DNA from: Paramecium tetraurelia
Lineage: Eukaryota; Ciliophora; Oligohymenophorea; Peniculida; Parameciidae
Reading direction: 5' to 3'
Assembly (NCBI RefSeq): GCF_000165425.1
Contig: NW_001799288.1
Location: 709,067-773,066 of the forward strand
Length of the DNA: 64,000 bases
Shown here: positions 12,798 through 47,090 of the stretch, one piece after another
Layout: each line of letters opens with the position of its first letter
Position numbering within the stretch: position 1 is the stretch's first letter
The notes under the pieces: model-generated
What the model was told of the DNA's origin: nothing
The model's database searches: none
The model's input: the letters and a program-made list of their open reading frames with translations, nothing else
Made by a program: the position numbers and the translations under genes

Positions 12798-13802
12798 ATG
12801 TCTTAAATCATTCGGAATATTTCAAGCTTAAGAGAAGAATGGAAATAATTGGTGAAAAAAAGGATAATTAAGAACAAAAGAAGGAACTAATATACTGTAC
12901 CGTATTAATTCAATAACACTCAAAACAAAAATATAAGGAAAGCTGACTTACTTCTGATCGTAAAGAATATTCCCTATACAATACCTAATAAAAATGTATT
13001 TAAACTCAAAACAAACATCCAATTCTCTATGAGCATAAACAATGAATACTCTTTGGGTTCGCTTTCAATTGACCCTCATTCAAACAATTATAAAGTAGTT
13101 AGAATTGATAAAAGAAAAAACCTTACTATTTTAACATTAGATGAGATACATAGACCTATTACACCATCAGATGTGCTTTATTAAATCTTTAAAACCAGAA
13201 ACGAATAATTAGCAGAAGCATTTCACCTTTATGAATAAAGGAATCTTGAACCCTCAAAATTTAAAATAAATTAAATCTCAGAAATGATTGAATTTGAATC
13301 AACTATCAAAGGTTCTCCATATGCATGTTACGTACAAATATATGAGAATGGAATGTGGAGAACATTTTAAAAGATATTTAATTAAAAAATGCTTTAAGTA
13401 TTAGCAATTTCTGAAGAAATGCTTATAAATTACTGTAATGAAACCAAATTGATTCCCCTGAGCGCATATATGGATGCATCTGATGAATAACTCAAGGTAT
13501 TCTAGAAGATTTTCTCTGGAAGAGCAGGATAACTTGAATCTAAAAGAGACTATATAAATTATAATGGTGATAGATTCACTGCTACTTTGAAGATTAAGAG
13601 TTTTTTCATAAAAGATGAAAATAAGGATTAGTTATTTGAATATACGTATTGCGTAACTGATTGTGAAAATAAATGGATTTCTGAAGATAGAGCAAAAAGG
13701 AATTAAAGGGAATATTTCAATATCAAACCAAGTAATTCTACGACAGATGAATCATCATATATAGAGTGCTAGAAAAGATGTGGATTCAAGTAAATGATCT
13801 GA
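12798..13802 (+). CDS. hypothetical protein, single exon, 334 aa
   Basis: One uninterrupted frame from the ATG at 12798 (MSQIIRNISSLREEWKQLVK) to TGA. The N-terminal 30 residues are basic (KKRIIKNKRRNQ) and could be a nuclear localisation signal. The middle (residues ~150-260) mixes alpha and beta predictions: MIEFESTIKGSPYACYVQIY, LQVLAISEEMLINYC, FTATLKIKSFF. The pattern faintly recalls PAS-containing fungal regulators, but no diagnostic motif is present and I do not assign it. The nearest upstream gene ends about 310 bases away. Confidence 0.62.
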
Positions 13803-14129
13803 TATTCCAAGCAGTTGACAGTTGTTTATTACAATTTATAATTTATTATAAACTAAATTAAATTTTGTTTAAAGACTTTATTAAAATATATACATATTTA
13901 ATTTTCCTTCCATTTAATCATGTTTATTTTATTTAAATTGTTCTAATTTTATTAGACTTTATTTGTACAAATATAAATTATAGTTCATAGGAATATGTAA
14001 TTATTTTATCAAGATTTGTTGTATAAAAATATATATGTTTAGACCAAATTCTGACAGCTGCTGCAAAATTCTAAATGAGAATACCTTATCAAATGACAAT
14101 TGATTTAAATGTAATAGATTTATAATAAT
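13803..14129. other. intergenic, no feature seen
   Basis: About 330 AT-rich bases between two convergent genes. I see no frame with protein-like composition and no tRNA-like folding. Confidence 0.5.
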
Positions 14130-14917
14130 TCATTAATCGTCGTTAGCTTCTTCTTCAGGATTATTCCATAAAGTCAAATTGTCTCTTAATAATTACATAA
14201 TGAGAGTGCAATCTTTATAATTCTCTTCATTGACTGTATCTACTTAAGCAATAGCTTATTCAAATGCATCATTGGCTATTCTTATAGCTTCAGTTGCATT
14301 TTATAGGATTTCATAATAAAATACTGATTAATTAAGATGTAAACCCAGTCTAATAGGAGATGTAGTTGATAAATTTGACTTGGCCAGGACATCAGCTTCT
14401 CTAGAAAGAATAAGAATTCAATTACTTGTAAGCCTGTGTCGCTTATTCAACAGCAGCATGATACTCATTATCTAATAAGAATTCTGCCAAATATCTATTA
14501 TAATCTCCCTTCATCTTTAAATAAAAGACTTTGCTATCTACTTATTTTGCATTTGGATAAAGAGTGCTATCGATTAAATTGAGTATTTCTGCACATGAAT
14601 TCTTAAGTTCTCCTTCTATTTTATGTTTGTAATTTCTTATATAATTTAATGTGTATTGATCAGTTTATTTCCTTGACTCCTTTTGTTCAATGGCAGTGAG
14701 AACTCTCAATTCTGCTCTTTTATTACCCACCTAAAAATTTGAATAAGCAATTTGATGATACCACATTTTTATAGGCTGCAGATAATATGCTTCTTTCATC
14801 TTTGTTTAATTCTTGATCCAAGAAATGCTTAATGAATTCAATCATATCATTAAAGCGTTCTGTTTGTTAGGCAATTTTAGCTAAGAATAAAAATTCTTCT
14901 CTGCTAAATTTATTCAT
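14130..14917 (-). CDS. 14-3-3 protein (downstream tandem copy, A)
   Basis: 14-3-3 proteins are dimeric adaptors that bind phosphoserine/threonine peptides. This copy reads [31 protein letters not shown], then after a 31-nt intron [18 protein letters not shown]. Helix 5 is present as [17 protein letters not shown], which holds the Arg-Tyr of the phosphate pocket; the Lys in AYKNV matches the conserved pocket Lys. After a second intron (25 nt) come [20 protein letters not shown] and [15 protein letters not shown], the standard C-terminal helices. The acidic tail is short ([10 protein letters not shown]). The start ATG (14915-14917) overlaps the TGA of copy B by two bases. Confidence 0.92.
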
Positions 14918-15701
14918 TATTAATTTAATATATTCATTTCTAAATTAGTTTCCTATTCCCAAAGTTGTATGTTATCACTAAGCAATTATAACAAACATTA
15001 GTAATCTTTGATATTCTCCTCTTTGACATGGTCCAAAAATAATATCCCTTTTTCATAAGACTCTTTTGCTAATTCTCTGGCTCCCTCGACATCGGATAGA
15101 ATATCACAAATGAATACAGAAGTATTTAGCATTAACCTCAAATACAAAGGCAATGTTGGAGACAATTTTGTTTATGCCATAAGAACAGCTTCTCTAATTC
15201 TAAATGATCAATACTTATAAGCTTCTTTTGCTTGATCAATTGAATTGTGTTAATCATTCTCCAAATGGAATTCTGCCAAATACCTATTATAATCGCCAAT
15301 CATTTTTAAATAGAACACTTTGCTTTCAGTCTATTTTGCATTTTATAATAATTTATCTCTGACCAATATAATTATCTCCTGGCATTTCTACTGCAACTCT
15401 TTTTCTATTTTAATTAAATAATTCTTAATATATAGTAAGACTTATCCATCATTCTATCTATTTGATTCTCTTTCTTCGATTTCCTAAAGTACCCTTAACT
15501 CAGCTCTTTTAATGCCAATCTAATGCTAATAAATAATTGTAATACCACATTATTATAGGCAGATTGAAGAGTATTACGTTCCTCTTTCGTAAGCTCTAAT
15601 TCATCGATTTATTTAACAAATTCAATCATATCATTAAATCTTTCTGTCTATTAAGCAATCTTAGCTAAAAATAAATACTCTTCCTTATTAAATTAATTCA
15701 T
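14914..15701 (-). CDS. 14-3-3 protein (upstream tandem copy, B)
   Basis: Second 14-3-3 gene in direct tandem. It reads MNQFNKEEYLFLAKIAQQTE, RNTLQSAYNNV, a 26-nt intron, then [39 protein letters not shown], a ~21-nt intron, and LPLYLRLMLNTSVFICDIL and YQCLLQLLSDNIQLWEQE. Both introns sit where those of copy A sit, so the pair arose by tandem duplication. Unlike copy A, the conserved pocket Lys of the YKNVV motif is Asn (YNNVV), which may weaken phosphopeptide binding. The gene ends ...NILNQQ then TGA, which overlaps the ATG of copy A, leaving no spacer. Confidence 0.9.
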
Positions 15702-15873
15702 AAAATAATTTAATATTCTTGATATTCATAATTATCACTAAGAAAATATCTAACATAAAAGATTTTACCAGAAGGAATATATAAGAAATGTTTTAATTTT
15801 ATACGTATCGATATAATTCCTATCATTAAGATTGATTAATCACCTCTATATTAACAATTTATATTATAATTAT

Positions 15874-16620
15874 ATGTCTACCTGGGATAAAAATAAATTT
15901 TTCATTTCTATTCCATCATTAAGAGATTTTTCATTACGAATATTATTATTATATCATTTTTATGTTTGTTATAATCTTTATCTCAATTAGTCAGATATGG
16001 TTATGAAAAATAATATTAGCATAAATAATGTAAATAATTGTAATAAGGTAAGAATAATTCAAAATGGAATAATTAATCCACTAAATCATAAAGTGAGAAC
16101 ATCTTATATCCATTATTTTAAAGTAGATTAAGAATATTAAGAAGAATTTATTTGGCCCGTTCTTAATATATAGAAATGCATTTATTTGGTTCAATATTAG
16201 ACTCTTTTAAGATCAAGAAGAAAAAAAGATAAGTTATAAAAAGGATATTGATAATTGATTAGATATATAAAGACACAAATATTGACCAAACATTTTATTC
16301 TATTTTAGTTCATGAAAAGGAAATGAAGATGAAATGATTACTTAGGAAATGAAAATGTCATACTAGTGCCAGGTTGTGATATTCTTTTAAAGTTAATAAG
16401 TTCTAAATTTACTGAAGTGGTCTGAGAGTTGAAAGATAAGAAATTTATCTCACTGAAAATTTTAAAATTCTTTGAGGCTATCAAGTTTAATTGATAATAC
16501 AGATATATTCTATAAGAAAATTAATTACATCAAAACGAATGGTTTCAAGATTAGCTTTAAATTTCTTATGAATGATAATAAAGAATTTATTTAATGTTGT
16601 TTATATTTAAATTAATATTA
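15874..16620 (+). pseudogene. degraded or unresolved coding stretch
   Basis: From the ATG at 15874 one frame is open for about 370 bases (MSTWDKNKFFISIPSLRDF, then VRTSYIHYFKVDQEYQEEF and IQKCIYLVQYQTLLRS). Past about 16230 protein-like pieces continue in shifting frames: ILIIDQIYKDTNIDQTFYSI, ENVILVPGCDILLKLISSKF and DKKFISLKILKFFEAIKF. Only some changes fit a short intron (for example 30 nt starting GTTATAAAAAGG), and several TGA codons lie in the way. No family is recognised. It may be a dying duplicate or a gene with introns I cannot place. It lies between divergently transcribed genes. Confidence 0.33.
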
Positions 16621-16625
16621 AAGAA

Positions 16626-18022
16626 ATGAATTATGATTACATAGGGGCTATTAAAATTAAAGATGGGCTATTTTTAGGAGATTAATTCGCTGCATAGGTA
16701 TTCTATAATGGTTAGATTAGGATCTGGAATTTATTGTTACTAATAAAGTCTCAAGAATTATTAACTGTGCATCCAAATAAATACCAAATCATTGGGAGTC
16801 TATTGGCATTATTTATATGTCATTCCCGTGGATGGATAATGATTAATAAGTAAGAAACCATTAAATAAATTATTAGATCATTTTACAATAAGATGAGATA
16901 ATTAATAATATAATGAAATTTATAGATGATGCATTAAATAATGGGGAGAGTGTTATAGTCTTATCAATTAAAGGACACAATAGATCAGTGGCAACATTAT
17001 GCGTTTATTTTATGAAGAAATATAGATGGACTCTTTATAAAACCCTTCAATATATGCATAATAGAAGACCTGATTTAGAAATCAGAGCTCACTTCTTTAA
17101 TTAGTTATTATCAGTTGAAACAAGATTGTAGAAATAAGGATATGGTGCTAAGACCTATAACTGGGATGAGATTTACACATAAGGCGAGAATGATGAAATT
17201 CTACTTAGAAATACTTACTTGAATTCTCAAGCATAAGGAGTAGCTGAATTCAAGGATCATGATCCCAAACCAAAGGAATCCAAGTTTATTGATTATGATA
17301 TATATTAGGTTGAAATTCGCTGAAAAAGTTTCCATGTATATTCCTCCATATGATAAAATAGTATTCTCTAAAGCAAAATCTTTGCCATAAGATGCAAGAC
17401 CTATTATAAAAATGTCAGGTTCATCAAAACAAATTGACCCTTCTTTTTAACAATAAGCTTAAAAATCATAATCTATGAATATATAGGATCAATCCAATTA
17501 ATAACCTTAAAAAGATTAGCAAAAATCTAGTTTACAACAAATTTAGCCTTAATATCCTTAAAGACCCTAGTCGTAGGGTGCTCAACAATAAAGGTTAACC
17601 AAAAGTGATAGTGTTAAATCTGGATCGGTGTTTGATAATAATGCTGCATGTATATAACATTTATTATATTGGATAGAACCACAAAGGATTTAAATGAATA
17701 ACTTCATGGACTCAAGAGATTAATTTCTCTAGAAATCCCAGCAACAAAATGGTACTCGTAGGCCCTAAACTGCTCCAAATTAATTGAAAGCTCCTAGAGT
17801 TCAAACTACTCCATATAAAAGAAATACTAGTTCAGGTCAAAGACAAGAAGCAGGATCATAACCAAATTCTTAATTTAAACCAATGAGATAAAGAGCATAA
17901 TCTCCAAATTCTACGTATAATTCATAAAATCCATATGTCCAAAGATAATTCAAAGCCAAAACATGGAAAAAAATGAAGCTCTATTTGTTCTTATTTTGTT
18001 CGCTCATCAAATAAAATTTTGA
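16626..18022 (+). CDS. catalytically dead dual-specificity-phosphatase-like protein
   Basis: The N-terminal ~170 residues follow the DSP fold: IGAIKIKDGLFLGDQFAAQ, VSRIINCASKQIPNHWESIG, IYMSFPWMDND, then the loop VIVLSIKGHNRSVATL and YKTLQYMHNRRPDLEIRAHF. The signature HCxxGxxR(S/T) reads LSIKGHNRS, so His and the nucleophilic Cys are replaced by Leu and Ser while Gly, Arg and Ser remain: a pseudophosphatase, perhaps a phosphoprotein-binding module. The C-terminal half is Gln/Pro/Ser-rich and disordered. Introns of 23, 27 and 25 nt are inferred near 16699, 16849 and 17283. The C-terminal end is uncertain: the frame used through the disordered tail stays open to about 18320, and a neighbouring frame stops at 18022. 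Confidence 0.68.
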
Positions 18023-26102: not shown

Positions 26103-26628
26103 TTTCTTAGTTTCATCTCATTCATACTAGATACATAATCCTAAACTTATACAATTTTAATCCTTATTTAAGATGAATTTAATGTTTTTTCATATATGCT
26201 TTTTCACATAAACGAGCCACTTGCAGATTTATTTAAACTTATTTTTTTCGATATTCAGCGTTATTTTTGCAATTTTAATTGTGGATATCCATTAAGTTGA
26301 TGTTTATGCTTTCATTACAAATTCTGCATATGCATTGAGAATTCCATTATAATTGATTATGATAATAGAGCGCCCTTTCATAAATCTGNGAATCAAATAT
26401 ATAATAGTTATGCTATATATATATACATTTATTGGCATAAACTCAAAAAGCAGTTATTTTTCTTTAATTCCTAAGATTTAAAATATATTTAATAAAGTAA
26501 ATTTATATATATTATTGTCTTTTTATAACATCATCCCAAGAATTATATATCAAATAATTATGAATGACAATAAGATCACTTTACAAGAATAAAAGTAATT
26601 AATGTGATTATTGTATATTGAATACTTA
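26103..26628. other. intergenic, AT-rich, contains one ambiguous base
   Basis: About 530 bases upstream of the AGC kinase, with several short AT runs (about 26414-26426). One base at 26389 is N. A short ATG frame at 26560 meets TGA after 15 codons and then continues into the next small gene, so the 5' end of that gene may lie here. Confidence 0.5.
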
Positions 26629-33442: not shown

Positions 33443-36400
33443 ATGGAAGAAAGTGAGACATAGCTGAATGTGAAAGTACAAGAATAGGGCAAATTGTACA
33501 GTGCTAATGAGATTGAAAATTTCAATTAGTATTTAAGCGCAATTTGCTTGAGTTTATTGATCATCGATAAGGATTAATGGAATGTAGCATGTCACGAGGA
33601 TGTGAATTAATAAGTATGAAATTGTAATAATCGAATAGAATATTTGTCAATTTTTATCGGATTCCTAAATAAAGGCTCTGATAGTTAGTAAGACTGTGGA
33701 GAATGAGAAATTCAATATTTAAATTCGCTCAGAATATGAGGCATCCAACAATTATGCTCATACAATTTGCTTTTTAAAGAGACACACCTTTCAATATGAC
33801 AATTAATTACAACCATAGTAATTTAGTAACCATGTTTAAGTGATAAACGTTGGATATGCAGAATCACAAGGAGGAGCAAATCCCTTCACTTTGTCACACA
33901 ATTACGTATAAAATTGTTTCATTCCAATCTTCACCCAATACAAGGGCGAGATTGACAAAAAGAGGATTGTAGATCAATCGAGTTATAACGATTTGATTAA
34001 GAAGCTGAATGAAGTTAATTTGGCATTCATTAAATGCAGATAGAATGTGGAAGTGCCTGAAATCATTTTACAATTCGATCCTCGTATCAAGGAAGCTGTC
34101 AAATAGAGAGGAGGCAAGCCAACAATTGAAGATGCAGCTCAATTGAATAAGCCTGACATAGTTTAATCAATATCTCAGACAGTGACAAGATGGATTTCAG
34201 ACATAAATTAAATATCAAACACAAAGTTGGAGTTGACTAATGCAAGTATAGTGGATGAAATAAACTATTGGATGAGCATGGAGAGGTCGTTGTTTTTTAT
34301 TGAGAATCAATTGAAACAACCTGAAGTTGATTTCACAATCGAAGTGTTGACTCAAGCTAAGAAGATGAACATCACAGCACAATTTAAGGAGATAGCCTTG
34401 AAGTAGAGCTTATAGAAATGTCAATCATGCAACTAATTCATGAAAGAATTCCCAATCAACAATTTATTGATAGCAACAAATTTGGTGGAAATCAAAGATG
34501 CTATGATCTAGATATTCTAACATATGAAGAAATTGTCAAACATTCAAGAGACATACACCATTCCTAGATCACTTCAATTGGCAGAATCCTTTTCAAGAGA
34601 ATTGACAAATGAAATGATCAAATATTTTAAGGGATTTTAGATACTCCACATTAAGTATGTTGACTTCAAGGGCTTAATCATCAAGACTCAGGAGATCTTC
34701 AGTCAATGGGATGAGGAATATAAGATATTCAAATAAAGTATTGTCAAGAAATCTGTGCATCAGAAGGATTAATATGGTTAATTTGAGCACATCAAATTGC
34801 AAAAGCAGATCCAACATATTTAGAGACTTAGGGAAATGCATGAAAATCTCAAAGAAGTTATTGAGTAGATCATTCAAAATGATTAAGAAGAGTAGAAGGA
34901 GAATGTCCAATAATTTGCCACCTTATAAGAAATTCAATAGGCATATGACATTTTCAAAAATGTTGAAGTGTTTGATTTGAGTAGAGATGGCGAAGATTAG
35001 TTTTTCAGAGCATTGAAATAATACGAAATTGCTATTGAATCCGTTGAAGCAACTATTACTACAAATTTGAGAGATTCACTTGGTTCAGCATCGTCTGCCA
35101 AAGAAATGTTTAGAATATTGGCTAAATTCAATAAGTTGTTTTCAAGACCAAGAATCAAGGGGGCCATCCAAGAGTATCAATCACAATTGTTAAAGACTGT
35201 CCACAAGGATATTCAATCCTTACAGAATAAGTTCAAGGAAACTTATTAAAAGAGTTAGAATTCGAGATTGGCATCAGCAAGAGATATTCCATTGACTTCA
35301 GGATTTGTTATCTGGTCCAAATAATTACAAATTAGATTGTAGAAATATATGCAAAAGGTAGAACAGATCTTAGGTCCTTAATGGGCAGAAGATACTGATG
35401 GCAAGAAATGTAAAGAAATGGGTGAGACATTTGAAAGGATTCTGGATTCAGGACCAGCTTTGGAGGATTGGAAACAAGAAATTAATCATCATAATAAGGC
35501 AGTCAGTCAAAATGAAAAGTTATTTGAAGTAGTTACAAGAAGGAGAGGATTAGAAATTAGAGTCAATTATGAGAAAAAGCTAAGCTAATTATTCAAAGAA
35601 GTGAGAAATCTAAGTAATATGAAAACAAAGGTCCCATATTCAATATCTCACATTGCTAATGATGCTAAGGCTTCTTATCCATTTGCCTTATCTTTACAAG
35701 AATCATTGCACACTTACATCTAGATAACATCTCAATTGAATGCCAAATCTGCCAAATTGGTAGCTGCTTTAAGAAAGGAAGTGTAACTATAAATTGGTTA
35801 AGGATTCAACTACTTGTGGACTCACAAAACCTAGTTACAGCCATACGTGAAGAAATTCACTGACAAGGTCTTTGAATTGGAGTAAGCTGTTAATGGATTG
35901 AATGAGAGAATTGGTTAGATAGAATCATTATGTGAAGCTATGAAGACATGTCCCGTAGATTCTTTGGCTGATAAATTAAAGGATATCCAAGAAGTTATAG
36001 ATTCACTATGCTTCAATAATTTCTCAAATTTACACATTTGGATCTAGGATATTGATAAATAAATTGAAAGCATTTTATGTGATAGAGTGACTGTGCAAAT
36101 GAAGGAATGGTTAAATTAATTCATCAATTATCAGAAAATTCAAGAAAGAGGACTTGTAAATTAGACAGTTGTGCATGAATTGAAACTACAAGATTAGATC
36201 ATTTATGTGGACCCTCCTGTTGAGTATGCAAAGTACTTCTGGTTCTAAGAGTTTCATAAAATGATTGGATAGATTTGCAGCTTACCCAGGTTAGTTGCCA
36301 ATAGATTCGACAATACAATATAGTAAAATACAGGCCCATGGGGTACTTAAAGAGACTTAGACTATTCAACTACTATAAATAAGATAAATTAACAGTTGAT

Positions 36401-39400
36401 AAAGGATGCTTATTCATAAATTGGGTAATTATTGGAAGACATGGAATAATACGTGTAGACATGGTTAAATTATCAATCACTATGGGAATTAGATATTAAA
36501 TAAGTAGAATAAATACTATAAGATGATATTGAAAAGTGGTAATAGATGTTAACAGATATTAAATAAGGAAGAGCTACATTCGACAATTCAACAACAGAGG
36601 AACATTTTGGAGCAATTATAATTGATTATAGAATGGTTTAAGTCAAGATTAATCATAAGTATGATGCTTGGCATAAGGAGTTGTTAAATCATTTTGGTAA
36701 TAAGTTTGGAGAGTAGTTGAGAGTGTTTAATAAGAATGTTACAACAGAAAAGGAGAAACTACTCAAAATCAATTTCTAAGATTTAACATCAGACATCATT
36801 GAATCCATTACAATAATATAAGAGTAAGATAAGAAATTCCCAGGATGGTCTGCAGATATAGAATCCTTTAAGAATGGTCAAAAGGTTTTGGATAGACAAA
36901 GATATCAATATCCAGGAGATTGGCTGAGTTTTGAATAGGTAGAGATGCAGTGGAATCAATTTAAATAGATTCGTAGTAAGAAACTACAATCACAAGAGAG
37001 TGAAATGAATAACATTCAGTCTAAGATTTAATAGGATGAGAGATATTTGAATTAATAAATACAAGAGATTGAAGAACAATGGAAGACATCTAAACCTGAT
37101 TCTGGAGATTGCTCTCCAAATGAGGCTGAATAGATACTCAAAAGTTTGAATGAACAACTGATATCAGTTTAAGAGAAGTATGAGAAGTGCAGTTAGGCTA
37201 AAGAGATTTTGAAGATGGATCCACCTACTCATTAATAGAAGTTGAATGTTTTGTTGGAATCAATTTCAGATCTCTAGGATGTTTGGTAGGAATTGGGCAA
37301 GATTTGGAAGGTGATGCAATCGATTAAGGAATAATTGATATCAGCTCTATAGAATAAGAAGATCAAGGATACATGTGATGAGGCTTAGAAACAATTGAAT
37401 GGAGTATCTACTAAGACAAGGAATTACGATGCATTTGAAAAGATGAAGGAGAAGGTAAAGAACTATATTAAGATGAATAAACTCATTATGGATTTGAAGG
37501 ATGAATCAATGAAGGAGAGACATTGGAGACAATTATTGTCAAAATTGAAAATCAATGAATCTTTAAATTAATTGTAAATGCAACATTTGTGGAATGCTAA
37601 TCTTTTGAATTATGAGAATCTAGCTAAGGACATTATGACAGTTGCAAGAGGAGAACAGGTGTTAGAGACAATGATTTCATAAGTGAAGGACTTTTGGAAT
37701 TCATTTGAATTAGAATTAGTCAAATATTAAACTAAATGTAAATTGATCAGAGGTTGGGATGAATTGTTTTAGAAGTTAGATGAGGATCTTAATAACTTAG
37801 CCTCAATGAAGATTTCTCCTTTCTATAAAACCTTTGAGGCAGAAATCTCTTAATGGGATGATAAATTGCAGAAAGTGAAATTGACCATGGATATTTGGAT
37901 TGATGTTCAGAGGAGATGGGTTTATTTGGAAGGTATCTTCTTTGGTTCTTCTGATATCAAAACATAATTGTAAAATGAATACAATAAATTCAAAGATATT
38001 GACAGTCAATTCACTAATTTGATGAAGAAAGTGGCTCAAAAACCATAATTAATGGATGTCTAAGGAATCCCCAATTTGGCTAAGACCTTAGAAAGATTAA
38101 GTGATTTCCTATAGAAGATCCAAAAGGCATTGGGTGATTACTTGGAGACTTAGAGATAAGCATTCGCTAGATTTTATTTTGTGGGAGATGACGATCTATT
38201 GGATATCATTGGTAATTCAAAAGATGTGACAAATGTGTAAAGACATTTCCCTAAGATGTATGCAGGAATTGTGCAATTGTAGAGTAGAAAGGATGGAAAT
38301 GATGATGTTGTATTGGGAATGTCAAGTAAAGAAGGAGAGGTGGTTCCATTTAGTAAGGAGGTGAAGATTGCAGAGGATCCCAGAATCAACATATGGTTGG
38401 GTAAGGTTGACAATGAGATGATGAATTCATTGGCTCTGGATTTAGAGAAATCAGTCTTAGATATCCAAGCTAATCAATAGAACAGGATGAAAGTAATTGA
38501 GGAACATCCAGCTCAAATCATTTTATTGGCCTTGTAAGTGGGATGGTGTTTTTCAGTTGAATCATCATTCAATAATGAATAATAGATGAAACAAACATTG
38601 TAGTATGTGTTGGAATTCTTGTCTGAATTGGCAGAGAGTGTATTGAAGGATCATCCTAAATAATTGAGATAGAAGTTTGAGTAGATTATTACAGACTTTG
38701 TTCATTAGAGAGATGTGATCAGATTGTTGATGAACAATAAAATAAACAGTAAGAATGACTTCGGTTGGTAATACCACATGAGATTCAATTGGAATTCTAA
38801 GGAAGCAGATCCTGGAAAAAGGTTACTGATTTAAATGGGTAATGCACAATTCCATTATGGATTTGAATATTTGGGAGTGGCAGAGAAGTTAGTCTAAACT
38901 CCATTGACTGATAAATGCTTTTTGACATTGACACAAGCTTTGCATTTGAGAATGGGAGGATCTCCTTTTGGACCAGCTGGTACAGGTAAGACAGAGAGTG
39001 TTAAGGCATTGGGTGCATAATTGGGTAGATTCGTTTTGGTGTTTAATTGTGATGAGACATTCGATTTTAATGCCATGGGTAGAATCTTCGTAGGATTGTG
39101 TTAAGTAGGAGCTTGGGGTTGTTTCGATGAGTTCAATAGATTGGAGGAACGTATGTTGTCTGCTTGTTCATAACAAATATTATTGATTTAAACAGGATTG
39201 AGAGAGAAGTAGAAGCAAATAGAATTGATGGGCAAGGATGTGAAATTGAGTTCATAGATGGGAGTGTTTGTTACTATGAATCCTGGATATGCAGGGAGAT
39301 CAAATCTACCAGAGAATTTGAAATAGTTGTTCAGATAAATGGCCATGGTTAAACCAGATAGAGAATTGATTGCTTAAGTCATGTTATTCAGTTAAGGATT

Positions 39401-42400
39401 CAGAACAGCAGAAAAATTAGCAGGAAAGATAGTTTCACTATTTGAATTATGTGACAATCAATTATCATCACAACCACATTACGATTTTGGTTTGAGAGCC
39501 TTGAAATCAGTATTGAACTCTGCTGGTAACATGAAGAGACAAGAAATGATAGACAGAAAATAAGAACCTGTTCCATAATCTGAAATTGAAGAGTTCGAAT
39601 AAACCATTTTATTAAGGAGTGTTTGTGATACTGTGGTACCCAAATTAATCAAAGACGATATCAAATTGTTGGAAACATTGTTATAAGGTGTATTTCCAGG
39701 ATCTTGCATTCCAGAAATTAAGGAGGAACAATTAAGAAAGGAATTAGCCTTGGCTTGTCAGAGAAAGAATCTACAATCGAGTAAGAACTTCATTGAAAAA
39801 GTGTTGTAATTGTATTAGATTCAGAGATTACAACACGGTTTGATGTTAGTTGGTCCATGTGGTTGTGGCAAGAGTGCTGCCTGGAGAGTCCTATTGGAAG
39901 CGATGTATAAATGTGATAAAGTGAAAGGAGAATTTTATATTGTTGATCCAAAGGCCATATCCAAAGATGAATTATATGGTAGATTAGACAATACCACTTT
40001 GGAATGGACTGATGGAGTCTTCACTTCTATACTCAGGAAAATCATATCTAATCAAAGACAAGAGAGCACCAGAAGACATTGGATTATATTTGATGGAGAC
40101 GTTGATCCTGAATGGGCTGAAAATCTCAACTCAGTGCTTGATGACAATAAACTATTAACCTTACCTAACGGTGAAAGATTGGCTATTCCCCCTAATGTTA
40201 GAATGATCTTTGAAGTCGAAACTCTTAAATATGCCACCTTAGCTACTGTTTCCAGATGTGGTATGGTTTGGTTTAGCGAAGAAACCATCAATGATGAAAA
40301 TATCTTCTATCACTTCTTGGAACGATTGAAGTAGGATGATTATGATCAATAAAAATCTGAAGATGACAACAACAAGTAAGTTAATTCTCAAGAAAGTGAA
40401 CTAAGAACTAAATGTGTTAAAGCCCTAGAATCAATCATCAAGTTTTTATCCTAATTCCTCTAAATTGCCTAAAAACCAGAATATAAACATGTCATGGAAT
40501 TCACCAGAATCAGAGTCTTAGAAAGCACTTTCGCTTTAGTTAGAAGAAGCATTTCAAATATCATCGAATACAATGAAAATAACTCTGAAGTTCCATTGGA
40601 AGATGATCAAATTAATGATTTCATGGTTAAACAATTTCTTATTGCTGTCATGTGGGGTGTCGCTGGTTCCATGAATCTTTATTAAAGAACACAATACTCC
40701 AAGGAAATCTGTTAATTATTACCACACAATGTTATCCTACCATAATTCAATGATAGCGCACCTTCATTGATTGACTTTGAAGTCACTCTCCCAGAAGCTT
40801 AATGGAGCCAATATAAGAAGAAGGTACCTCAAATTGAAATTGATCCACAAAGAGTCACAGATGCTGATCTCATCATCGAAACAGTTGATACTCTCAGACA
40901 TAAAGATGTTCTCTGTGGATGGCTTAATGAACATAGACCCTTCTTATTATGTGGACCTCCTGGTAGTGGTAAGACCATGACTTTAATGAGCACACTAAAG
41001 GCCTTAACTGATTTCGAAATGATCTTCATCAATTTCAGTAGTTCCACTATGCCTCAATTAATCATTAAATAATTTGATCATTATTGCGAATATAAGAAAA
41101 CTACAAATGGAGTCTTCTTACAACCAAAGAATTAGAAATGGCTCGTTGTATTTTGTGATGAAATCAATCTACCTGATCAAGATAAATATGGCACCATGGC
41201 TATTATCACTTTCTTACGTTAATTAACAGAATAACACGGATTTTGGAGATCTTCAGATAGACAATGGATTTCCCTTGATAGAATCTAATTCGTAGGAGCA
41301 TGTAATCCTCCTACTGATGTGGGTAGAAAACCACTTACTCCAAGATTTCTTAGACATTGTCCTTTAATCCTCGTCGATTTCCCAGGACCTGAATCACTCA
41401 AATAAATTTATGGCACTTTCAATAAGGCAATGCTTAGAAGAACAGTTAACCTTAAACAATATTCTGAATAACTCACTAATGCTATGGTTGAATTTTACAC
41501 CAAATCATAATAACATTTCACAGCTGATTAATAAGCTCATTATATTTATTCACCCAGAGAATTAACTAGATGGAAGTATGCTTTGAATGAAGCCTTAGAA
41601 CCACTTGAATCTGTTGAAGATTTAGTTAGACTATGGGCACATGAAGGTTTAAGATTATTCCAAGATAGATTGGTACATGAACATGAAAAAGAGTGGTGCA
41701 ATAAACTTATTGATCAAGTTGCTTATAATAATTTCAACAATTTGAAAGATGAAGCTTTACAAAGACCAATTCTATTCAGTAACTATCTCCATAAGGTTTA
41801 TCAAAGTGTTGATAGAGAAGAGTTGAGAAAGTACATCCAAGGAAGACTCAAATAATTTAATGAAGAAGAATTATCTGTTCCCTTGGTTGTTTTTGATGAT
41901 GTACTTGATCACATATTGAGAATCGATAGAGTTCTGAAATAACCTTTAGGACATCTACTATTGGTTGGATCTTCTGGAGTTGGTAAAACAACACTCACAA
42001 GATTTGTAAGTTGGATTAATAATCTTACAGTCTTCTAAATTAAGGCAGGTAGAGATTATTAATTAGCTGACTTTGATAATGATCTGAGGGAGGTAATGAA
42101 GAGGGCTGGTGCTAAAGGCGAGAAGATTACATTCATTTTTGATGAATCAAATGTATTAGGTCCATCTTTCTTAGAGAAGATGAATGCATTGTTGGCATCA
42201 GGTGAAATTCCAGGATTGTTTGAAAATGACGAATATTTGGCATTGATTAACTTGCTTAAAGAAAACTCAAATCAAAACAAATAATTTGATTCTTCAGAAG
42301 AATAGTTATTCAAGAATTTCACTTACTAAGTGTAAAGAAATTTACACGTTGTATTTACAATGAATCCTAAGAATCCAGATTTTTCAAATAGAACAGCTTC

Positions 42401-45400
42401 TTCCCCTGCATTGTTTAATAGATGTGTTATAGATTGGTTTGGAGATTGGACCAATGAAGCTCTCTTTTAGGTTGGTAAAGCATTTACTATGTACATTGAT
42501 CCTCCTGAAAATGCATTCAGCAAAAAGATTAAAGATGAAACTTAAAGATAACATATTTTAGTATCCACTTTAGTCTATATCTAAAATACTATCATTGAAT
42601 TGAATAACAAATTACAGAAGGGAGCTAAGAGATTCAATTATATAACTCCAAGAGACTATTTAGATTTCTTGAAGCATTTCGAGAAATTGCATAATGAAAA
42701 GAAATCGCAATTGGAAGATTAATAGTTGCATCTGAATGTTGGTTTGGATAAGTTGAAGGAGACAGAACAACAAGTATTGGAGATGCAGAAAAGCTTAGAT
42801 CAGAAGAAGGTTGAGTTATTGACAAAGGAGAGACAGGCAGGTGAGAAGTTGCAGACAATTATTGAAGAGAAGAAGATAGCTGAGAAGAAGAAGGAAGACA
42901 GTACAAGATTATCAAGTGATGCTGAGAAGAAGGCTAAGGAGATGGAAGTAAGGTAGTCTTAGGTCAATAAGGAATTGAATGAAGCATTGCCTGCTTTGGA
43001 AAATGCAAAACAATGTGTGAATAGCATTAAGAAGGATGATTTGAATTAAATCAGAGCATTGGGATCACCTCCTGCCTTGGTTAAGTTGACAATGGAAGCC
43101 GTTGTTTGTGCAATTAATTCATTGGAAAAGAGTCCAGAATGGAAGGACGTATAGAAATCAATGGCCAATATGAATTTCATCAATAATGTTATTAACTTCA
43201 ATACAGAAACAATGCCACCCAAAGTGAAGAAATTCATTTTAACAAAATATTTATCAGCCCAAGAGTGGAATATTGACAGAATTAACTTTGCATCAAAAGC
43301 AGCAGGTCCATTGGCTATGTGGTTGGATTCACAATTGAAATATGCCGATATTTTATAGAAAGTGGATCCACTTAGATAGGAAGTGGCTAAATTATTGTAA
43401 GAGAGTGACGAACTCAACACTTAGAAGAAGATCTATGATGATGAAGTAGCAGCTGCTGAGGCTAAGATTCACAACTTACAATAGGAGTATTCGGAATTGA
43501 TTAGTTAGAAGGAATCAATTAAGTCAGAGATGTTGAAAGTGTAAGAGAAAGTAACAAGGTCCTAGGCATTATTGAGTGATTTGAGTGGAGAAAGAGTACG
43601 TTGGGAAGAGGCATCATAAAACTTTAAAAGTTAATTAGCTACAATGATAGGAGATGTGTTATTGTCATCAGCATTCCTGTCTTATATTGGGTTCTTTGAT
43701 CATTTTTACAGGAAGGTGGTAATAAACACTTGGAAAGATTATCTCTCGGGCTAAGCGAATATCTCTTACAGACAAGATCTTTCATTGATTGAATTCTTAT
43801 CTAGACCTTCAGACAGATTGAATTGGCAATCACATACATTGCCTTCGGATGATTTGTGCATGGAGAATGCCATCATATTATATAGATTCTAGAGATATCC
43901 TCTAGTTATTGATCCATCTGGACAGGCATTGTCTTATATTTCCTCATTGTACAAAGATAAGAAATTAGCAAGGACATCATTCACAGATGAATCATTCTTG
44001 AAGACCTTGGAAACATGCCTAAGATTTGGTTGTCCATTGTTGGTACAGGATGTGGAAAAGGTGGATCCAATTTTGAATTCAGTTTTGAACAATGAAACAT
44101 ATAAAACAGGAGGAAGAGTGTTAATAAGAGTAGGCAATTAAGAAATCGATTTTTCACAAGGCTTTACTATGTTCATGATCACCAGAGATAGCACAGCTAG
44201 ATTCACTCCTGATTTATGCAGCAGAGTTACATTTGTCAATTTTACAGTCACTCAAAGCAGTTTGTAGGAACAATGTTTGAATATCTTCTTGAGAAATGAA
44301 TCCCCAGAAACTGAGGAGAAGAGATTAAATTTAATGAAATTGCAAGGAGAATATATAGTTAAGTTGAGAGAATTGGAAGATCAATTATTGGATTCATTGA
44401 ATAATAGTAGAGGATCCATATTGGAAGACGAGAAGGTTATCTAAACATTAGAGAAGTTGAAGAAGGAGGCTGCTGTTATTGTTTAAGAAATGAAATAGGC
44501 TGACACTATTATGAATGAGGTCATGAATACAACACATTCATATGTTCCTTTGGCTAATACTACCTCTAAGATCTTCTTCAGTTTGACATCTTTGGCCAAT
44601 ATTCATTATTTGTACTAGTTTTCATTGTAATTCTTCATGGATACCATTTATAATGTGTTAAATAAGAATGAATAGTTGCAGAAGATTCCCAAACAAGATT
44701 TGATAAAGAGAAGAATTCTAATTTTCAATGAAATGTTCAAAGAAATATACAAACGAATGAATTTCTCTTTGTTATAGGAGGATAAATTGGTGTTTGCAAT
44801 TACCTTGGCCTAAGTGAAATTGGGAGACAACACCTTGGGATAGGAATTCTTGAATGTATTCAAACCACCAACAGTGATGGAGACTACATTTTCAAATACA
44901 TTCTTGTAAGGGAAGTTGAGTATCCAATAATTGAAATAATTAGAAGGAATAACTCAATAGAATTAAACTTTCAATAGACTCATAGACAACTTAAATAAGA
45001 ATGAAGATCGTTGGCTCAACTTTTTAAATGATGAAGCTCCAGAAAATGACATTCCAACATAATGGTATAATGAAGTTTAAAGAGATGACATTGTTAAATT
45101 AGACTGGATTGATAGTCATCAATTAAAGAGATAATTGGATGATTTACACATCCTAAGAATATTCAGAGCTGATAGATTCTAAATAATAGCTAGAAAATTA
45201 ATCAATCAAATTTTGGGAGAGGGTTTCATGGATGAACAAACAGTGGATATGAAATTGGTAGTTGAGAAGGAAGCATCGAACAAGATTCCTATTCTTTTAT
45301 GTTCAGCCCCAGGATTTGATCCATCCTTTAAAGTCGAATAACTCAGTAGAGAAATGGGAATCAAATTGACTAGCGTGGCTATAGGAAGTGCTGAAGGTTT

Positions 45401-47090
45401 TGATTAGGCCGAATAGGCAATTACTCAAAGTGTCAAATCCGGATCTTGGGTGATGTTGAAGAATGTTCATTTAGCTACCAGTTGGCTTAATGATTTAGAG
45501 AAGAAATTATTTAGATTGACTCCAAATGCCAATTTCAGAATATTCTTAACCATGGAATTCAATCCAAAGATACCAACTACTTTGATTAGATAATCCTATA
45601 AATTGGTCTTCGAACCCCCTGATGGTATCAAAGCATCTCTGATTAGAACATTCAAAACTGTCTTGTCTCAACAAAGAACAGACAGATAACCAGTGGAAAG
45701 AGCAAGATTACATTTCCTGTTAGCTTGGTTACATGCTGTTATTCTGGAGAGATTGAGATTCACTCCTATTGGATGGAGCAAAACCTATGAATTTAATGAG
45801 GCAGATTAAAGATGCTCATTGGATCTCATTGATGAATATGTAGATGCCTTAGGTATAAGATAAAATATAGATCCATCTAAATTACCATGGGATGCCTTTA
45901 GAACTATATTGACATAGAATTTATATGGTGGTAAAGTAGATAATGAATATGACCAAAAGATTCTTCAATCCTTGGTTGAACAATTCTTCACTGAACAAAG
46001 TTTCAATCATAATCATCCTCTATTCTTCACCTTAGAAGGCAAAGAAGCCATCACAGTTCCCGAAGGCAGAACTTATCTAGATTTCATGTAATGGATTGAA
46101 CAATTACCAAAGACTGAAAGTCCAGAGTGGTCAGGTTTACCTTCCAACGTAGAAAGAGTCCAAAGAGATCAATTAACTCAAAAGTTGATCACCAAAGTCT
46201 AAAATCTCTAACAAGAAGGCGAAGAAGAAATCACTTAAATTGAAGTTCAAACTGAGAAGACTCAAAAGAAGGATAACAAAAAGTCTGACCAAGTTTAATG
46301 GCTATAGGATCTTCTAGAGAAGGTTGAGAAATTCAAAGCCATACTCCCCAATAAAATCTCTCCCTTGGAAAGAACAGCCGATTCTATCAATGACCCCTTA
46401 TTTAGATTCTTAGATAGAGAAATTACTGTGGCCTCTAAATTATTAAAAGCTGTAAGATAGAATATTGAGGAATTAATTTAATTGGCTTAAGGAAAAATCT
46501 TAGCCACAAACATACTAAGATAATTGGCTAAGGATGTTTTCAACAATATTGTCCCAGCATAATGGAATAAATACAATGTAATCACTATGCCTTTGAATGA
46601 TTGGGTTGGTGACTTTAAGAGAAGAATTGATTAATTCGATCTCTTAGGAAAAACTAAAGACTTCTAAAAAGGCCAAGTCTGGTTTGGTGGATTGCTATTT
46701 CCTGAAGCATATCTTACAGCCACCAGATAATACGTGGCCCAAGCCAACAAATGGTCATTGGAAGAATTAGAACTATAAATGATACCAGAAGATCAAGGAA
46801 TTGATGAGGATTCCTTTGTTATTGAAGGAGTATCAATGGAAGGAGGACATTTAGACTCCAAGACTTTACAAGTAAGAATTGTCAATGAAATCTCAGTCGC
46901 ATTAAAACCAATAACCTTAAAATGGTGCAAAACTTCCCAAAAAGGAGTTGTAGGAGATGATGAAATTGTTTTACCTGTTTATTTGAACAAAACAAGGAAG
47001 AATCTTATATTCTCCCTTAAAGTCAAGATGGGTAAACTTAATAGATACACACTCTATTAGAAAGGTTTGTCATTTATCCTCTTTAATTGA
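33443..47090 (+). CDS. DYNC1H1-like: cytoplasmic dynein 1 heavy chain
   Basis: The minus-end-directed microtubule motor subunit, about 4540 aa. One 25-nt intron (33614-33638) is followed by about 13.4 kb in one frame. AAA1 has [15 protein letters not shown] and [19 protein letters not shown] (residue ~1834), nearly identical to cytoplasmic dynein 1 of animals. AAA2 has [11 protein letters not shown] (~2129), AAA3 [11 protein letters not shown] (~2495) and AAA4 [13 protein letters not shown] (~2834). The stalk coiled coil and microtubule-binding head run from about 42640 to 43620. Cytoplasmic type is supported by [17 protein letters not shown] and by [17 protein letters not shown] after AAA1. 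All four P-loops are intact. It probably carries vesicles and serves intracellular and mitotic transport rather than the ciliary beat. Confidence 0.95.
33614..33638 (+). other. 25-nt intron in the dynein heavy chain
   Basis: Starts GTATGAAATTG and ends TCGAATAG. Removing it joins EDVNQQ to [11 protein letters not shown] in the frame used for the rest of the gene. Confidence 0.8.
38966..39000 (+). other. AAA1 Walker A of dynein heavy chain
   Basis: Encodes [11 protein letters not shown], the main ATP-hydrolysing site of the motor. Confidence 0.92.

Follow-up and report, generated by a model that had tools for sequence, protein, structure and literature searches.

Structure of the overlapping pair

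The window, by which we mean the whole 64,000-nt stretch of Paramecium tetraurelia DNA analysed here (contig handle C166), carries two tandem 14-3-3 genes on its minus strand, an upstream, divergent gene that we call UP and a downstream, conserved gene that we call DN. Translated under table 6, in which TAA and TAG encode glutamine and TGA is the sole stop, the spliced exons of both genes give complete proteins ending at a TGA, of 246 amino acids for UP and 243 for DN (Table 1). Both proteins match the whole 14-3-3 profile of Pfam (PF00244; positions 1-223 of 223 for UP), with 224.3 bits for UP and 284.7 bits for DN at a cut-off of 33.2.

The initial annotation had proposed that the two genes overlap stop-to-start with two shared bases, and direct reading of the sequence bears this out: the ATGA at 14917-14914 contains the start codon of DN (ATG, 14917-14915) and the stop codon of UP (TGA, 14916-14914), the TG being common to both. 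Its further claim that both intron positions are kept was also correct, the introns lying after CDS bases 156 and 461 in UP, in DN and in the three close paralogs of DN. A base error at the ATGA junction is unlikely, because a protein annotated in P. octaurelia (P0001) has the length of UP and an identical C-terminal tail.

Table 1. Positions in the window of the two 14-3-3 genes, their overlap and associated predicted features
Feature	Position	Strand	Basis
UP exon 1	15546..15701	-	spliced translation; Pfam PF00244
UP intron 1, 26 nt, GTA..TAG, after CDS base 156	15520..15545	-	position as in DN and three paralogs
UP exon 2	15215..15519	-	spliced translation
UP intron 2, 21 nt, GTA..TAG, after CDS base 461	15194..15214	-	sequence, intron comparison
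UP exon 3, with TGA end at 14916-14914	14914..15193	-	sequence, spliced translation
Possible fusion intron that would skip the TGA (26 nt, GTG..TAG), considered spurious	14953..14978	-	sole phase-compatible bridge found
Putative ancestral DN 5' leader, which also encodes the final ~9 residues of UP (LEMNILNQQ tail); DN start site expected here	14918..14945	-	blastn, shuffles
ATGA stop/start overlap	14914..14917	-	sequence
DN exon 1; UP 3' UTR expected to end here, ~14870 if 44 nt	14762..14917	-	spliced translation; UTR length from the available part of PMC5485702
DN intron 1, 31 nt	14731..14761	-	sequence, intron comparison
DN exon 2	14426..14730	-	spliced translation
DN intron 2, 25 nt	14401..14425	-	sequence, intron comparison
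DN exon 3, with TGA end	14130..14400	-	spliced translation
3' UTR-sized stretch past the DN stop, within the match to the C181 paralog	14093..14129	-	blastn match 14093-14945, 89.9% overall

Relatives and age of the upstream gene

A PF00244 profile search of the genome placed 14-3-3 genes on at least 13 contigs, among which C166 alone has two adjacent; the search covered 69.07 Mb of the ~72.1 Mb published (PMC5485702, cited here and below from the part of its text available to us), and small contigs may be absent from it. DN has counterparts on contigs C181, C25 and C230 (loci L009, L010 and L011, respectively), which lie in blocks with neighbours common to the window and differ from DN at 5, 8 and 5 of 243 residues (96.7-97.9% identity); the product of the C230 gene is identical to a P. 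tetraurelia protein (P0002, macronuclear). No recognisable counterpart of UP was found in these three paralogous blocks. UP and DN are alike at 133 of 240 residues, and the comparison of UP with DN and the three paralogs gives 132 to 134 of 240 aligned positions. The stretch from the 14-3-3 gene to the gene at 16626-17976 differs between the blocks (window 15702-16600, L009 3276-4446, L010 823-4490, L011 5328-7213): on C166 it comprises UP and a long piece without a predicted gene, and L010 and L011 have a coding-like piece in common.

In the protein tree, in which the gene models of L012, L016, L017, L018 and L020 are uncertain (extra or missing pieces), UP and P0001 group with the DN clade of four genes (support 79), whose members cluster apart from them (support 73); the UP branch is long, at 0.92 substitutions per site, the stem of the DN clade measuring 0.08. 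The codon model likewise favours a position of UP outside the pair of DN and its C181 paralog, by 2.8 lnL units. From these trees UP looks older than the last duplication; its age is uncertain because a long branch can be drawn outward. Another very divergent 14-3-3, at L020 2523-3316, has a branch of 1.33; in its gene model, which is uncertain, S replaces N173 and K replaces R60.

P0001 is the one close relative of UP (99%) among the best 120 of 301 protein-database matches, the next reaching 55%. It is annotated as a protein in its own right and equals UP at 243 of 246 residues, the differences being N75S, R193K and Y200F. The P. tetraurelia UP protein itself is absent from the 120 listed of the 301 matches, and P0001 has one member. 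A control with a neighbouring gene found P. octaurelia, P. pentaurelia, P. primaurelia and P. sonneborni all represented in the protein database. UP may thus have been lost in the last three species or may merely be unannotated there, missing annotation being conceivable because the P. tetraurelia protein is likewise unlisted. The window gene at 13029-13802 shares 77-81% identity with the nearest relatives listed for it, from four other Paramecium species, and its C166 copy may be evolving fast.

Constraint and conserved residues

A codon model of five sequences and 240 gap-free alignment columns gave an omega of 0.011-0.021 on the UP branch, against 0.004 elsewhere, over three topologies; the value is rough, as synonymous sites on that branch are saturated and its length ran to the maximum allowed for two of these topologies. 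For this reason we use from the model the rejection of omega = 1 alone: when the UP branch is constrained to that value, the likelihood drops by 20.4 to 60.4 lnL units (2*delta lnL 40.8 to 120.8) in the three topologies. Judged by its sequence, UP looks like a real 14-3-3 that has evolved fast under selection.

Residues were mapped via a zeta-like fish sequence (P0011) and are given in 14-3-3 zeta numbering. We take K49, R56, R127 and Y128 to be the phosphate-binding positions, and R18, D21, Y82, K85 and E89 to be those of the dimer interface. DN has all four of the former. UP and P0001 retain R56, R127 and Y128 together with N173, N224 and W228, and all five dimer positions; in both, K49 is replaced by N, E180 by D, L216 by C and R222 by S. 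The change at K49 occurs in UP and P0001 only, the other 20 of the 22 aligned sequences having K, and leaves UP with an incomplete phosphate-binding set (three of four). UP resembles the 14-3-3 proteins of PF00244 in its full-length match, its dimer residues and most of its phosphate-binding residues, and differs from them in lacking K49 and R222 and in having, in place of the acidic tail, a non-acidic one encoded by what appears to be a leader. We file it as a 14-3-3 protein by descent and profile, a filing that makes no claim of canonical phosphopeptide binding. The residues suggest that UP is a modified subunit that probably forms dimers with those of DN type and whose binding would be altered. 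As a conserved 14-3-3 with a changed groove, it may be a natural half-blind dimer partner.

Origin of the overlap

DNA homology between DN and its C181 paralog (blastn) does not stop at the start codon and reaches 14945, 28 nt 5' of the DN ATG. Within this leader 24 of 28 nt are identical, a level that none of 100,000 mononucleotide shuffles reached. When the last 28 or 45 nt of UP were trimmed, the flanks of L009 and L010 had no similarity to the remaining UP end above that of shuffles. For the L011 flank and the trimmed UP end (28, 45 nt), the number of shuffles, out of 200, that did as well was 6 at the 300-nt setting; at 150 nt it was 30 and 55 for the two trims, respectively, and at 790 nt 42 and 68. 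We read this similarity, weak at one of three lengths, as chance and not as a relic of UP. The untrimmed UP end matched the L009 flank at a level reached by none of 200 shuffles at 150 nt, by 3 at 300 nt and by 27 at 790 nt. A tblastn search for UP relics upstream of the DN paralogs, run to an E value of 5, returned weak matches only (best for UP 0.22), which were also taken as chance.

The 14-3-3 core of UP ends at the conserved tryptophan W228 and is followed by EQETNLEMNILNQQ, where DN has its acidic tail. Because the leader homology spans 28 nt, with none significant beyond, and because the core ends at this tryptophan, the last ~9 codons of UP are, on the strength of the comparison, the old leader of DN, and the UP stop is the TGA within the ATGA of DN. 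UP would have arisen long ago by tandem duplication of DN, with its 3' end becoming fused into the short 5' leader of DN; the UP frame would then read through that leader, where TAA TAA are glutamines, and end at the TGA in ATGA. A single-stop code can in this manner make a new C-terminus from a neighbour's leader and start codon.

That the 5' flank of UP carries the old distal promoter of DN was rejected, as this flank gave no significant match to any of the three paralogs over 40-700 nt. The UP and DN leaders resemble each other marginally, at a level reached by 25 of 300 shuffles over 40 nt and by 15 of 300 over 100 nt. As a single control for the DN leader, the neighbouring gene at 16626 has, by eye, a similar block of ~30 conserved nt before its ATG. 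By eye, too, the leaders in the window (14914-14937) and at L009 each have an additional ATG farther upstream, which opens a short frame closed by the TGA of the main ATGA and reading MNILNQQ (the UP frame) in the window and MIILYQQ at L009.

Rarity of the overlap

We surveyed gene spacing with a home-made gene finder in 151.6 kb, made up of the window and 12 loci each around a 14-3-3 gene, a sample biased towards 14-3-3 neighbourhoods; the counts at the default setting take in predicted CDSs of at least 240 nt, and those of the penalised runs take in genes with a span above 250 nt. With non-GTA introns penalised by 2 or 4 nats, 35 or 36 same-strand pairs were predicted, of which UP and DN alone overlapped and one other was separated by 20 nt or fewer (17 nt). 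At the default setting UP and DN were fused, and the other 35 same-strand pairs had a median gap of 294 nt; the overlap was likewise uncalled at a penalty of -1. An earlier version of the program, with a crude intron score, had fused the genes via two doubtful introns. The gene finder does not decide between overlap and fusion, since at the default setting it called overlapping genes in iteration 0 and a fused gene in iterations 1-4. Predicted starts read ATGA in 40 of 89 cases in the sample, and a stop placed one base into a start codon is therefore easily come by in a code with TGA as its only stop.

Expression of the pair

In P. tetraurelia, 5' UTRs average 21.7 nt (median 19, n = 10,087) and 3' UTRs 44.6 nt (median 44, n = 4,641), some genes overlap, the addition of Cap-Seq data split 649 gene models in two, and no exon skipping was found (PMC5485702). 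With UTRs this short, a start site for DN fits within the last codons of UP, and a 3' end for UP within exon 1 of DN. DN transcription would start at most ~28 nt 5' of its ATG, inside the UP coding sequence, and the UP transcript would be cleaved and polyadenylated within DN exon 1; a start site in 14918-14945 and such a 3' end would both be of ordinary size. The DN leader is indeed a conserved block of 28 nt, a normal length for Paramecium and what a separate gene would have. The distal upstream sequence of DN is unlike that of the three paralogs, and we therefore assume that DN is driven by a core promoter of ~28 nt together with UP coding sequence.

The initial annotation had seen no room between the genes for a 3' UTR, poly(A) signal or promoter. 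This holds for the gap itself and overlooks that a neighbour's coding sequence can contain such elements. Of the options it listed, a downstream promoter inside the upstream coding region is the best supported, given the conserved DN leader and the tiny UTRs (PMC5485702), and it stands as a prediction. Overlapping transcription units described in Paramecium, with start sites told apart by Cap-Seq (PMC5485702), are similar in being close neighbours whose tiny UTRs run into each other; UP and DN differ from them in that the coding sequences themselves overlap, at ATGA, and that the genes are paralogous. No paper on this gene pair appeared among the matches listed in our literature search. Most likely, to judge by these features, the pair consists of separately transcribed genes in a very compact genome and not of a bacteria-like operon, and we hold it probable that the whole account is right, namely that UP was fused into the DN leader, that the two genes are transcribed separately, and that UP is translated into a modified 14-3-3 partner under selection. 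The locus is a compact natural test case, both for the minimal sequence that a Paramecium promoter requires and for the way in which a eukaryotic gene terminates if the next gene's coding sequence has to accommodate its 3' UTR.

Alternatively, one mRNA from the UP promoter could carry both frames, with DN translated by termination-reinitiation at the ATGA, so that the two potential dimer partners would be made in linked amounts; we consider this unlikely. It is consistent with the dimer-interface residues retained in UP, and with DN's upstream sequence being UP beyond 28 nt, unlike the upstream sequence of the paralogs. The DN leader is conserved, however, as for a start site of its own; reinitiation would be needed after a frame of 246 codons; and DN-type genes work without UP, since no recognisable UP-like gene lies upstream of the three paralogs. 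Long untranslated tails with introns are likely targets of decay. On a dicistronic mRNA UP would have such a tail, of ~800 nt with two introns, against a median 3' UTR of 44 nt (PMC5485702).

The -4 nt stop/start overlap of UP and DN has the geometry of translationally coupled ATGA pairs in prokaryotes (PMC6728339, PMC10666635, in the parts available), which often encode subunits of one complex (PMC10666635); UP and DN differ from these in being eukaryotic nuclear genes with introns and a conserved leader for DN itself, for which a shared mRNA is hypothetical. Human mRNAs whose second ORF is translated by coupled termination-reinitiation (PMC3923131, in the part available) resemble the pair in their overlapping ORFs and offer a possible mechanism, whereas here the single mRNA is hypothetical and the two frames are full-length paralogs. 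No dicistronic nuclear protein-coding mRNA of Paramecium was mentioned in the titles and abstract openings of the literature matches listed, and 'polycistronic' in the available text of PMC6735861 refers to pre-rRNA. Dicistronic expression is less likely than two transcripts, and we think it quite unlikely that this is a ciliate nuclear dicistronic mRNA on which reinitiation at ATGA co-makes a normal 14-3-3 and a partner without Lys49. Were it so, a dimer with one working groove would be set by translation.

The initial annotation had also suggested a spliced double 14-3-3 protein, which is possible on paper and in our judgement very unlikely. The one phase-compatible GT..AG bridge that we found, at 14978-14953, is of normal length (26 nt); its removal would take out the end of UP, skip the TGA and join DN in frame, and our gene finder used it (in its first version and in iterations 1-4 of the corrected one). 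With a score of -4.66 it falls above the 5% and below the 10% quantile of the predicted introns, and it is one of only two among 168 predicted introns that start with GTG. A bridge of some kind turned up in 1059 of 2000 null joins, and one scoring as well or better in 307. We rejected the fusion as not better than chance and as removing conserved residues of UP, for it would delete part of the last helix (N224, L227 and W228, common to other 14-3-3s), which is intact in P0001. A fused query of UP and DN found no close Paramecium double 14-3-3 among the 120 matches listed, the best listed matches spanning both halves having at most 45% identity.

That UP is a decaying duplicate or an annotation accident without a product, so that the overlap would be meaningless, accords with its long branch, its lack of a recognisable counterpart in the paralogous blocks and its loss of K49, and is highly improbable against the rejection of omega = 1, the intact frame and introns, and the near identity of P0001.

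Elsewhere in the window, the gene finder predicted a gene of ~4541 codons with one intron at 33443-47090, and a single N lies at 26389.
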